A stretch of 64,000 nt of DNA from Deefgea salmonis (GTDB lineage: Bacteria > Pseudomonadota > Gammaproteobacteria > Burkholderiales > Chitinibacteraceae): contig NZ_JAJAWG010000002.1 of NCBI RefSeq assembly GCF_020531905.1, positions 1 through 64,000 of the forward strand, written 5' to 3'. The notes beneath the pieces were generated by a model. The model was given only the letters and a program-made list of their open reading frames with translations. It was not told the origin of the DNA and searched no databases. Shown here one piece after another: positions 14,264 to 16,970 of this stretch; within the stretch, counting starts at the first letter, position 1, and each line of letters opens with the position of its first letter. The position numbers and the translations under genes are program-made.

Positions 14264-16066
14264 TTAAACCGGCTGTGGATGCACCCGATTGATATTGTTG
14301 TGGATTTTATTAAGGGCCGAAATATACGCTTTGGCGCTGGCAACAATAATGTCGGTATCTGCGCCTTGGCCGTTGACGATTTTGGCGTCCTTCATCAAAC
14401 GGACGGTCACTTCACCTTGGCTATCCGTGCCCGAGGTAATTGCATTGACCGAATACAGCTGCATCTCTGCACCGCTATTAAACAGTGATTCAATCGCTTT
14501 AAAGGTGGCATCTACTGTGCCATCGCCGTGTGCCGTCGCATGACGCTCGATACCCGCTTCGCTAACGACGATATCGGCGCTCGGTGTTTCACCGGTTTCG
14601 GAAACGACTTTTAGCGAAATAAGTTTGATGTGCTCTTGTTCAATCGAAATCAACTCATCGGACACCAAGGCGTGCAAATCTTCGTCAAAGATTTCGCGTT
14701 TTTTATCCGCCAAAGTTTTAAAGCGCGCAAAAGCGGCATTCAAGGCTTCTTCCGATTGCAGCTCGATGCCCAATTCAATCAATTTGGTTTTAAACGCATT
14801 GCGGCCAGATAATTTACCCAAGCTCAAACGATTCGTGCTCCAGCCGACCGATTCAGCGCTCATGATTTCGTAAGTTTCGCGGCATTTCAAAATGCCATCT
14901 TGGTGAATGCCCGATTCGTGGGCAAAGGCATTGGCGCCGACAATGGCTTTGTTCGGTTGCACTGGATAGCCGGTAATCGTTGACACCAATTTACTGGTTG
15001 GCACGATTTGGGTGGCATCGACATTGCATTGAACATTAAAAATATCGTGGCGAGTGCGTGTCGCCATAACGATTTCTTCGAGCGAGGCATTGCCAGCACG
15101 TTCGCCCAAGCCGTTAATGGTGCATTCAACTTGGCGTGCGCCGCCCAAAACCGCCGCCAAAGAGTTGGCGACCGCCATGCCTAAATCATTATGGCAATGC
15201 GCCGACCAGATGACGCTATCGCCACCTTTGGTTTTGGCAATCAATTCGCGGAAAAAGGCTTCTGTGCGTTGGGGTACGGCGTAGCCGACGGTGTCGGGTA
15301 CGTTTAATGTTGTTGCGCCAGCTTCGATCACTGCGCCAAAAATCCGCGCCAAAAAGTCGATATCGCTACGCAAGGCGTCTTCGGCCGAAAACTCAACATC
15401 ATCGGTGTATTCACGCGCCATTTTGACAGCTTTCACGGCGGCATCCACCACCTGATCTGGTGTCATACGCAGCTTGTGTTCCATATGAATCGGGCTGGTG
15501 GCGATAAAGGTATGAATGCGGCCACGTTTGGCGTCTTTAATCGCTTCACCCGCAGCGCGTACGTCACGCTCATTGGCGCGCGCTAAAGAACAGACGATGC
15601 TGTTTTCGATAATGCCAGCGATGGTTTTAATCGCATCCGCGTCGCCGGGGCTGGCGGCGGCAAAACCGGCTTCAATGACGTCAACGCCGAGTTTTTCCAA
15701 TTGGCGGGCGATACGGATTTTTTCTTCTTTGGTCATCGATGCGCCAGGAGACTGCTCGCCATCACGCAATGTCGTATCAAAAATCACCAAGCGGTCATTA
15801 CTGCGTTGAGTCATGCTGTGCTCCTGAGTTTCTGCGGCGGTGGTTTGATCACGGCCCATATAATTTTGGATATTGAATTGCCGGCCTTGCTGACTTGCCA
15901 ATTGCGCCAGTTTATTCACTTGGGCGAGTGGCAGGCTGCCGCGTTCGCGCCATTTATAAATCGCAGCTCGGGATACCGGCTCAGCTGGAAAAGCAGCATT
16001 GAGCTGATCGGCCAGTGTACTGGGTCCACCAAAATCAGCGATTAGACGGTCGATGTCTAATGACAC
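14264..16066 (-). CDS. leuA: 2-isopropylmalate synthase with N-terminal helix-turn-helix extension
   Basis: The frame encodes 600 residues. From Met85 (ATG 15812-15814) it is a normal LeuA of 516 residues, with the HMGL-like barrel ([16 protein letters not shown], metal-binding [10 protein letters not shown]) and a C-terminal leucine-binding regulatory domain. It condenses acetyl-CoA with 2-ketoisovalerate, the first leucine-specific step. Residues 1-84 resemble a Cro/CI-type DNA-binding fold: [11 protein letters not shown], then [19 protein letters not shown]. The GTG at 16064-16066 has AAAGGAG 6 bases upstream, and Met85 has AGGAG about 8 bases upstream, so both a fusion and a short form may be made. 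Dyads TTAGAC/GTCTAA surround the promoter. Confidence 0.9.
15812..15829 (-). promoter_or_regulatory. Internal ribosome binding site and ATG for canonical LeuA
   Basis: On the minus strand AGGAG lies about 8 bases before ATG 15814, exactly where ordinary LeuA proteins begin ([19 protein letters not shown]). This would allow independent translation of the enzyme without its helix-turn-helix extension. Confidence 0.65.
16042..16060. promoter_or_regulatory. TTAGAC-N7-GTCTAA dyad at the leuA fusion start
   Basis: TTAGAC (16042-16047) and GTCTAA (16055-16060) form a perfect 6-bp inverted repeat just inside the coding start of the extended leuA. It is the same half-site as at 16107 and 16189, suggesting an operator set. 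Confidence 0.5.
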
Positions 16067-16093
16067 AGTGTTCTCCTTTGCAGCGATGACTTG

Positions 16094-16122
16094 AGATTAG
16101 CTATTTTTAGACTTAGTGTCAA
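16094..16122 (-). promoter_or_regulatory. Predicted leuA promoter
   Basis: Reading the minus strand, a consensus -35 TTGACA (16122-16117) is followed after 17 bp by TAATCT (16099-16094). The -10 is weak (3 of 6). The start point would lie about 20 bp upstream of the GTG at 16066. The -35 overlaps the dyad at 16107-16123. Confidence 0.5.
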
Positions 16123-16123
16123 A
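16107..16123. promoter_or_regulatory. TTAGAC-N5-GTCAAA dyad over the leuA -35
   Basis: TTAGAC, 5-bp spacer, GTCAAA: one mismatch from the perfect dyad at 16189. It covers the predicted -35 element, so a bound protein would block RNA polymerase. Confidence 0.5.
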
Positions 16124-16188
16124 TATTGAAAATAAAAAAAAGCGATCTGTTGTATTGGCCGCTATTTTTTCTACATTATATTGTTAAA

Positions 16189-16205
16189 TTAGACTATTTG
16201 TCTAA
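16189..16205. promoter_or_regulatory. TTAGAC-N5-GTCTAA dyad upstream of leuA
   Basis: A perfect 6-bp inverted repeat with a 5-bp spacer. It overlaps the last codons and stop of pssA, about 70 bp upstream of the predicted leuA -35. It shares its half-site with two more dyads at 16042 and 16107. Confidence 0.5.
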
Positions 16206-16970
16206 TGTTACAGCTTGTTTTGGACGTTTAATCACACGCCACAGCCAATACACATAGCCTGAGGCGGCGTAGCAGATAAAGAAACTAAACAACACCAAGG
16301 CCGGACGGGATGCGCCGATGAGTAAAATCAAGGTGGCAATCAATAAACTCACAAAGGGCACGGTTTTGCGCATATGCAGCTCTTTAAAGCTCCAGTACGG
16401 CACGTTGGACACCATGGTTAAACCGGCAAACAGCGTAAAGCACAGCGCAGCGTAGGGCAGTAGTTCAACCAAAGGCGATAAATCGTCATGGTATTCAATA
16501 TTAATCCACACTAAACCGGCGACTAAGGCCGCTGCAGCAGGGCTGGGCAAGCCTTGAAAAAAACGTTTATCAACCACTTCGATATTGGTATTAAACCGCG
16601 CCAAACGCAGCGCCGCACCAGCGCAATAGATAAAGGCCACTGCCCAACCGAGTTTGCCAAAGCCCGACAAACCCCATTCATACATAATTAAAGCGGGGGC
16701 GACGCCAAACGACACCATGTCGGACAAGCTATCAAATTGCGCGCCAAACTCAGATTGCGTATGCGTCATTCTGGCGACTCGACCATCCAGGCCGTCTAAA
16801 ATCATCGCAGCAAAAATCGCCAACGCCGCCGATTCAAACTGGCCATTCATAGCTTGCACGATGGCATAAAAACCAGAAAACAGTGCGGCGAGGGTAAACA
16901 AATTGGGCAGTAAGTAAATACTTTGACGGCGCAAGGTTTGTGCGCGGCTTGATGGGGATTGCAGTTGCAT
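16194..16970 (-). CDS. pssA: CDP-diacylglycerol-serine O-phosphatidyltransferase
   Basis: This 258-residue integral membrane enzyme makes phosphatidylserine from CDP-diacylglycerol and serine. It belongs to the CDP-alcohol phosphatidyltransferase family. The motif DGLDGRVARMTHTQSEFGAQFDSLSD carries the DG..AR...G...D...D catalytic pattern (near residues 59-84). About seven membrane helices follow from the hydropathy. The start has GAGG 6 bases upstream. The next enzyme of the pathway, psd, is divergent from it. Confidence 0.94.
   Translation of the reverse strand: MQLQSPSSRAQTLRRQSIYLLPNLFTLAALFSGFYAIVQAMNGQFESAALAIFAAMILDGLDGRVARMTHTQSEFGAQFDSLSDMVSFGVAPALIMYEWGLSGFGKLGWAVAFIYCAGAALRLARFNTNIEVVDKRFFQGLPSPAAAALVAGLVWINIEYHDDLSPLVELLPYAALCFTLFAGLTMVSNVPYWSFKELHMRKTVPFVSLLIATLILLIGASRPALVLFSFFICYAASGYVYWLWRVIKRPKQAVTLDK

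Follow-up and report, generated by a model that had tools for sequence, protein, structure and literature searches.

The window (the whole 64,000-nt stretch of Deefgea salmonis DNA analysed here) carries a 2-isopropylmalate synthase (LeuA) gene with an N-terminal helix-turn-helix (HTH) domain of the carph-isopro type (14264..16066, minus strand), identified from its reading frame and from profile matches. The frame runs from a GTG at 16066 to the stop at 14264 and encodes 600 aa with no internal stops. Codons 1-84 (16066-15815) form an HTH module of 84 residues directly ahead of an inner ATG (15814-15812), from which the LeuA enzyme proper extends (14264..15814, minus strand), with HMGL-like, HCS_D2 and LeuA_dimer (leucine-sensing) domains located by profile matches. 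Within the module, the carph-isopro HTH domain (15872..16054, minus strand; residues 5-65, with a conserved segment inside) was delimited by profile, alignment, AlphaFold2 (AF2) model and viral fold matches. It is followed by a variable HTH-to-LeuA linker (15815..15871, minus strand), defined from alignments and from pLDDT values below 50 at residues 72-89 of the full-length AF2 model. An original prediction, made from the letters of this DNA, had described an in-frame join of an HTH domain to a full-length LeuA, and this was borne out by the stop-free 600-codon frame with domain matches on both sides. The ribosome sites that it named are likewise present at both starts: AAAGGAG (16073..16079, minus strand) precedes the fusion start GTG (16066-16064), where an SD-like word was found in 66/68 loci, and AGGAG (15821..15825, minus strand) precedes the inner ATG, where the SD-like word is kept in relatives. 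The upstream neighbour (16194..16970, minus strand, frame only) was named pssA-like from its sequence and the gene order, and presumably encodes a phosphatidylserine synthase.

Residues 5-65 matched the NCBIfam model NF046037 (carph-isopro) at 75.6 bits (cut-off 38, E 2.5e-21) over model positions 1-54 of 54. Pfam matches to the same part were below threshold (P22_Cro, E 0.025; YdaS, E 0.033), so that a profile search of residues 1-84, as originally proposed, gave a divided answer, with the NCBIfam model well above its cut-off and Pfam below. Residues 89-598 matched NF002087 at 885.2 bits (cut-off 729), and the LeuA part also matched TIGR00973 at 674 bits (cut-off 598.7); PF00682 and PF08502 (LeuA_dimer, 126.5 bits) are both present in the enzyme part, to which the closest solved chain is PDB 3rmj. 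An intact enzyme and an HTH domain, the latter presumed to bind DNA, are thus joined in a single chain.

Folding of the first 84 residues with AF2, using 39 sequences, gave a confident helical domain (mean pLDDT 86.6) with helices at residues 5-11, 15-25, 33-42 and 47-59 and a short one of four residues at 66-69. Residues R33, A35, Y37 to G43 and P46 are invariant across the 39 aligned sequences. When the model was compared with viral models by Foldseek, 2/139 matches had E < 0.001. The cleaner of the two best was the phage 'DNA-binding protein' A0A6J5LMK2 (TM 0.76/0.86, rmsd 2.0); for targets called Cro or YdaS the matches had E 0.15 or worse. PHROG 8008 ('DNA binding protein') matched 35/39 HTH members. 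Among solved structures no relative of the HTH was found by sequence, the one match being irrelevant (E 0.79), and the phage record collection gave no match to the window HTH domain at E 0.01. The full-length AF2 model of the fusion was poor (pLDDT 71.5), and no dimer was obtained.

Spread of the fusion and its inner start

The same fusion was sought in Chitinibacteraceae, as originally suggested, and was present in all 43 of the 43 genomes of the window's family, each with an above-cut-off domain match within an uninterrupted frame of 599-674 aa. HTH-LeuA in the same order was also found outside the family in two genomes (G048 and G524). Because the frame is stop-free across all of these genomes, assembly error, chance fusion and frameshift were ruled out. 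A named collection yielded 69 loci with relatives, ranging from Deefgea to Chromobacterium; the nearest record, with 98% identity across the query, is a metagenome-assembled genome of Deefgea. The genera with named fusion loci include Deefgea, Chitinibacter, Iodobacter, Silvimonas, Chromobacterium, Vogesella, Aquitalea, Pseudogulbenkiania, Paludibacterium, Crenobacter and Leeia, among others, and the LeuA active-site motif was reached in frame in 68/69 named loci. This wide spread over named genera indicates that the fusion is old and has been retained; the fusion loci are mutually related, and their counts are not counts of independent events. At one locus of Paludibacterium denitrificans (L238) the HTH frame falls short of the LeuA active-site motif, and one genome (G017) carries two full HTH-LeuA genes (L019 and L070), each with an O2-like site (see below) scoring 10/10.

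In order-level relatives (G037, G055-G057, G059 and G060) the matched part of LeuA is without the HTH. Across the class, sampled evenly with 369 genomes, three further domain matches turned up, all of them free-standing in frames of 65-120 aa. Scans of the class and of the phylum were run at E up to 1e-8 with at most 17 and 16 candidates scored per genome, respectively, so that members can be missed; within this scope, HTH-LeuA outside the family seems rare.

The inner methionine (M85) is invariant in the 39 sequences. An SD-like word stands ahead of the inner ATG in 62/68 loci (random windows, 178/1380), and a stricter form of the word in 54/68 (windows in the HTH/linker region, 179/4642). 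Since the linker around it is variable in both length and sequence, the conserved ribosome site of the inner start looks selected. This conservation suggests that a second LeuA form without the HTH is made from the inner start, and lends support to the shorter enzyme that had been proposed at the outset.

Predicted operators upstream of leuA

Comparison of 45 fusion loci (the 43 family genomes, the second copy in G017, and G048) revealed a 17-bp palindrome, TTNGAC-N5-GTCNAA, at two upstream positions. In the window, the predicted operator O2 (TTTGACACTAAGTCTAA; 16107..16123, minus strand) spans the leuA promoter's -35 hexamer, TTGACA, and the predicted operator O1 (TTAGACAAATAGTCTAA; 16189..16205, minus strand) overlaps the pssA stop codon; their starts are 82 bp apart, or 7.8 turns. 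The two best sites in these discovery loci summed to 18.2 of 20 (dinucleotide shuffles, 12.5). In 45 held-out loci, chosen by name from outside the discovery genera, the mean sum was 17.2 (shuffled, 12.7), and a sum of at least 16 was reached in 44/45 loci and in 12/2250 shuffles. Both sites scored at least 8 of 10 in 62/69 named loci (exceptions: L178, L179, L192, L224, L228, L233 and L240), and an O2 scoring at least 8 started at -61 to -56 in 63/69.

A generic inverted-repeat test with one mismatch allowed was not discriminating, many spacer lengths exceeding the shuffles, and an exhaustive gapped-word count was therefore used instead. When all words of the form 3-N(0..15)-3 were counted with no prior motif, GAC-N5-GTC ranked first, being present in 68/69 loci (0.6 in shuffles). 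The sole locus without it was L192, where a 27-bp pair was considered as an O1/O2 pair and rejected on an O2 score of 7. In an alignment of 12 promoters selected by hand, all invariant columns ahead of the start codon fell within O1, O2 and the -10 element. The strict pattern TTNGACANNNNGTCNAA occurred in the 3.26-Mb genome of the window (G000) only at O1 and O2, with 3 matches for the reversed control, and was confined to leuA in a second genome (G003) as well. A looser motif added one site in the window genome and, genome-wide, did not exceed its control in frequency, so that the argument for the sites is one of location and conservation and not of abundance. Matches to the loose motif at two Chitinibacter loci (L255 and L256) lie inside an apparent ribosomal protein gene and look accidental. 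Such pairs were absent from ten HTH-less leuA genes, namely those that scored best among the non-fused leuA of order-level genomes; there the best site scored 6-8 and the second best 6 of 10. From the conservation of O1 and O2, a specific operator is predicted at the fusion's own promoter.

The predicted leuA promoter is sigma-70-like (TTGACA-N17-TAATCT; 16094..16122, minus strand) and was read from the sequence; the A and T of its -10 element are invariant in the 12-promoter alignment. Across loci, the best -10 lay at a spacing of 17 nt in 35/68 and of 18 nt in 21/68, mostly with only 3 or 4 of 6 matches. A consensus promoter scan of the window region did not report the leuA promoter and reported one overlapping O1 instead. 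A promoter-like TAGACA-N18-TATAAT (11/12; 16175-16204, minus strand) overlaps O1, with a -10 that lacks conservation in the promoter alignment. Between O1 and O2 lies an inverted repeat (16134-16170) whose 11-nt arms are separated by 15 nt and which has a run of T on the minus strand; it may be the terminator of the pssA-like gene, although a terminator scan of the window region found none. An RNA leader or T-box at leuA was rejected, there being no Rfam match within 15700-16500.

A candidate third site, O3, lies inside the fusion gene at codons 3-9 (TTAGAC-N7-GTCTAA, with a spacer of 7, not 5; 16042..16060, minus strand), and was identified by repeat search and codon usage. In the 3.26-Mb genome, TTAGAC-N(2-9)-GTCTAA was found only at 16189-16205 and 16042-16060, both at leuA (reversed control, 0). 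Leucine codon 8 is CTA in 19/67 loci, against 0.7% of leucine codons in the LeuA body, an excess that points to selection on the DNA at the candidate O3.

Where both sites scored at least 8 (41/45 discovery loci), O1 and O2 were 53 (G048), 64-65, 71-75 or 82-84 bp apart; other distances were 41 bp at L210, 66 bp in Leeia with one poor half-site, and 63 bp in G524, where the sites are weak (8 and 8). The distance classes correspond to about 4, 5, 6, 7 and 8 turns at 10.5 bp, and five hand-entered class means gave a phase concentration of 0.84 (p 0.02). In four Chromobacterium loci (L223, L225, L226 and L230) the sites are 46 bp apart with a weak O1, both scoring 8, and with this class added the phasing of class means had p 0.135. 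Phasing over 25 hand-entered lineages, which are not independent, came to 1/50,000. Given the p of 0.135 with the 46-bp class, same-face cooperative or looped binding is a hint only, and the odds are somewhat against DNA looping between O1 and O2.

CarA fusions and other contexts of the domain

In another family of the phylum (f236, taken here for Acetobacteraceae), the domain was found in 74/80 genomes. At one of these loci (L090) its fusion partner is CarA, the carbamoyl-phosphate synthase small subunit (TIGR01368, 449 bits), and the translations of 32/35 placeable f236 loci read like it. The promoters of HTH-carA hold paired TGGGAA-N5-TTCCCA palindromes, which have the same 6-N5-6 geometry as those of leuA and a different sequence. 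The palindrome was first seen in five loci (L090-L094) and was then tested on 30 others, in which the mean score was 21.5 of 24 (shuffled, 14.5) and a score of at least 20 was reached in 26/30 loci and in 0/1500 shuffles. The loci below 20 were L111 (15), L116 (16), and L114 and L127 (17 each); under another window, L116 and L127 show two sites of at least 10. Spacings are mostly 37-40 bp (3.5-3.8 turns), with some of 44 or 50. In 20 of the 80 f236 genomes searched for perfect CarA sites, 22/25 such sites lay directly before HTH-carA (reversed control, 0); two genomes (G847 and G875) had no perfect site. Six f236 genomes gave no domain match: three show no carA, in G831 carA is cut at a contig end, in G871 it is partial, and in G834 it is intact. 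The last of these, a 1.9-Mb genome, has a CarA without the HTH (L257), and its upstream DNA holds no palindrome (best 8 of 12). The joint lack of domain and palindrome in G834 is what would be predicted for a domain acting on its own promoter, in one case.

Several Chitinibacteraceae possess a second isopropylmalate synthase, of which a 153-aa piece (G014) best matched the PRK03739 type at 254.6 bits (full-length cut-off 455). The region upstream of this gene beat its own shuffles at p <= 0.045 in 9/13 genomes (200 shuffles each); the stretch tested, -300 to -60, was fixed after a wider look. The promoters at L248, L250, L252 and L253 (G048) showed no sites above shuffles. Apart from the failing loci, L241-L252 are promoters of the PRK03739-like second synthase with O1/O2-like sites. 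In the window genome itself, a second isopropylmalate synthase copy was not found at the search threshold.

Two free-standing carph-isopro frames (L095 and L097) adjoin genes with HTH and Peptidase_S24 domains, the make-up of phage CI repressors. From these CI-like neighbours and the viral fold match, a captured prophage Cro is the likely source of the domain. A third setting of the domain is long frames (590-1262 aa) at L087, L089, L100 and L101 (G445 and G726). In L089, a membrane-like and a coiled-coil-like stretch, judged by eye, follow the domain, and in G445 three equal-score domain matches lie near both ends of one contig.

Proposed autoregulation and comparison with known systems

The preferred reading, held at a probability of about 0.82 on comparative evidence, is that HTH-LeuA is an autoregulatory biosynthetic enzyme acting through O1 and O2; its binding and repression are predicted. 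Cro-like domains at the N-termini, paired within the LeuA dimer, would bind the 17-bp palindromes. As O2 overlaps the leuA -35 box, bound HTH-LeuA would block RNA polymerase, and O1 upstream may stabilise repression through cooperative, perhaps looped, binding. The C-terminal leucine domain would probably couple DNA binding to leucine, so that a single protein could serve as catalyst, feedback target and repressor. The inner start would yield additional LeuA without the HTH, which could dilute the repressor. Use of both starts and cooperation of O1 and O2 are parts of the model that we infer. The original prediction of a DNA-binding enzyme is strongly supported by comparison, in that paired palindromes at its own promoter track the fusion and the CarA fusions offer a parallel. 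Its further proposal of leucine-responsiveness gains plausibility from the intact LeuA_dimer domain at the C-terminus; that leucine acts as co-repressor in DNA binding is judged about evenly balanced.

Autorepression could also proceed without leucine sensing, the protein holding its own level constant and leucine acting only on catalysis. This variant is compatible with the autoregulatory core, and it agrees with the lack of any visible ligand dependence in the data and with the layout of the chain, in which the HTH stands at one end, followed by a linker modelled at low confidence, and the LeuA C-terminal domain at the other. It is considered rather unlikely, however, since the characterised fusions are LeuA and CarA and plain level control would not need pathway-entry feedback enzymes; both are pathway-entry enzymes and classical feedback sites. 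An activator or a protein of mixed role, with O1 as an upstream activating site, would account for the conserved position of O1 well upstream of the promoter, but the placement of O2 over the -35 hexamer, within a narrow range of starts in 63 of the 69 loci, favours occlusion and makes activation quite improbable.

The palindromes might instead serve another, free-standing regulator, the HTH of LeuA having some other task or none. Binding by the LeuA HTH is itself a prediction, carph-isopro proteins do stand alone elsewhere, and weak or small matches occur in genomes of the family. Against such a regulator, the strict motif lies only at leuA in both genomes searched, the ten non-fused leuA genes are without pairs, and the CarA fusion has 6-N5-6 palindromes of its own that are absent from the domain-less G834; it is regarded as improbable. 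That the HTH is a functionless passenger, the remnant of a captured phage Cro, is hardly credible with a core invariant across many genera and palindromes conserved along with it, even if the free relatives beside HTH and Peptidase_S24 genes make a phage Cro origin probable.

With autoregulation of HTH-LeuA as the core, a wider reading can be offered tentatively, at a little under even odds. A phage Cro-like domain would have been added to two or more enzymes at the entry of pathways, LeuA and CarA among them, to combine end-product sensing with repression by the same dimer through twin operators; by setting what fraction of subunits bears the HTH, the inner start would adjust how strong repression is, and the second synthase would come under the same control in several Chitinibacteraceae. 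Control of amino-acid pathways generally falls to a repressor distinct from the enzymes, a leader peptide or a riboswitch, and feedback on the enzyme adds a further layer. Here the regulatory and feedback layers appear to be combined in one polypeptide, and the predicted operators are precise enough for direct testing. The findings suggest how leuA is controlled in Chitinibacteraceae and Chromobacteriaceae. The parallel with HTH-CarA points to a possible function of this catalogued domain and to a path that can be taken repeatedly from phage regulator to metabolic regulator.

The window HTH is a clear member of NF046037, and the members found here sit on LeuA and CarA; we read the name carph-isopro as pointing to those two enzymes. 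The entry names the domain, gives no function and says nothing of operators, autoregulation or an inner start. The original statement that no HTH-LeuA fusion had been described held in part. The domain is modelled in NCBIfam and matches both enzymes, so that the fusion itself is not unknown to databases. A literature search for 'carph-isopro' gave no paper, and no description of an HTH-LeuA or HTH-CarA regulator was found among the matches listed, in which subscription papers and preprints are thinly covered. What is new, by comparison of sequences, is the conserved pair of palindromes upstream of leuA that is tied to the fusion.

Ordinary bacterial LeuA (NF002087, TIGR00973; 3rmj) is alike in its full-length enzyme part, whereas the HTH and the paired upstream sites are absent from the ordinary LeuA compared. 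Phage Cro/YdaS-type regulators share with the HTH a phage DNA-binding fold match, weak P22_Cro and YdaS Pfam matches and, at L095 and L097, CI-like neighbours, but they are small free proteins and the LeuA HTH is fused to an enzyme. Among enzymes that double as repressors, BirA differs in its winged HTH, its ligand and its pathway, and PutA in its ribbon-helix-helix domain and in belonging to a catabolic pathway. BirA is described as both biotin ligase and repressor of the bio operon, an enzyme that also represses transcription of its pathway, and PutA as both proline dehydrogenase and repressor of the put operon, a catalytic enzyme and direct transcriptional repressor (PMC6978683). Judged from those descriptions, HTH-LeuA would be like BirA in joining the roles of enzyme and repressor and unlike it in appearing to act mainly on its own gene, and would be like PutA, by description and not by sequence, in its proposed role of enzyme as repressor. 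The mode of control would thus resemble that of BirA and PutA, but with another enzyme, another domain and another operator pair.
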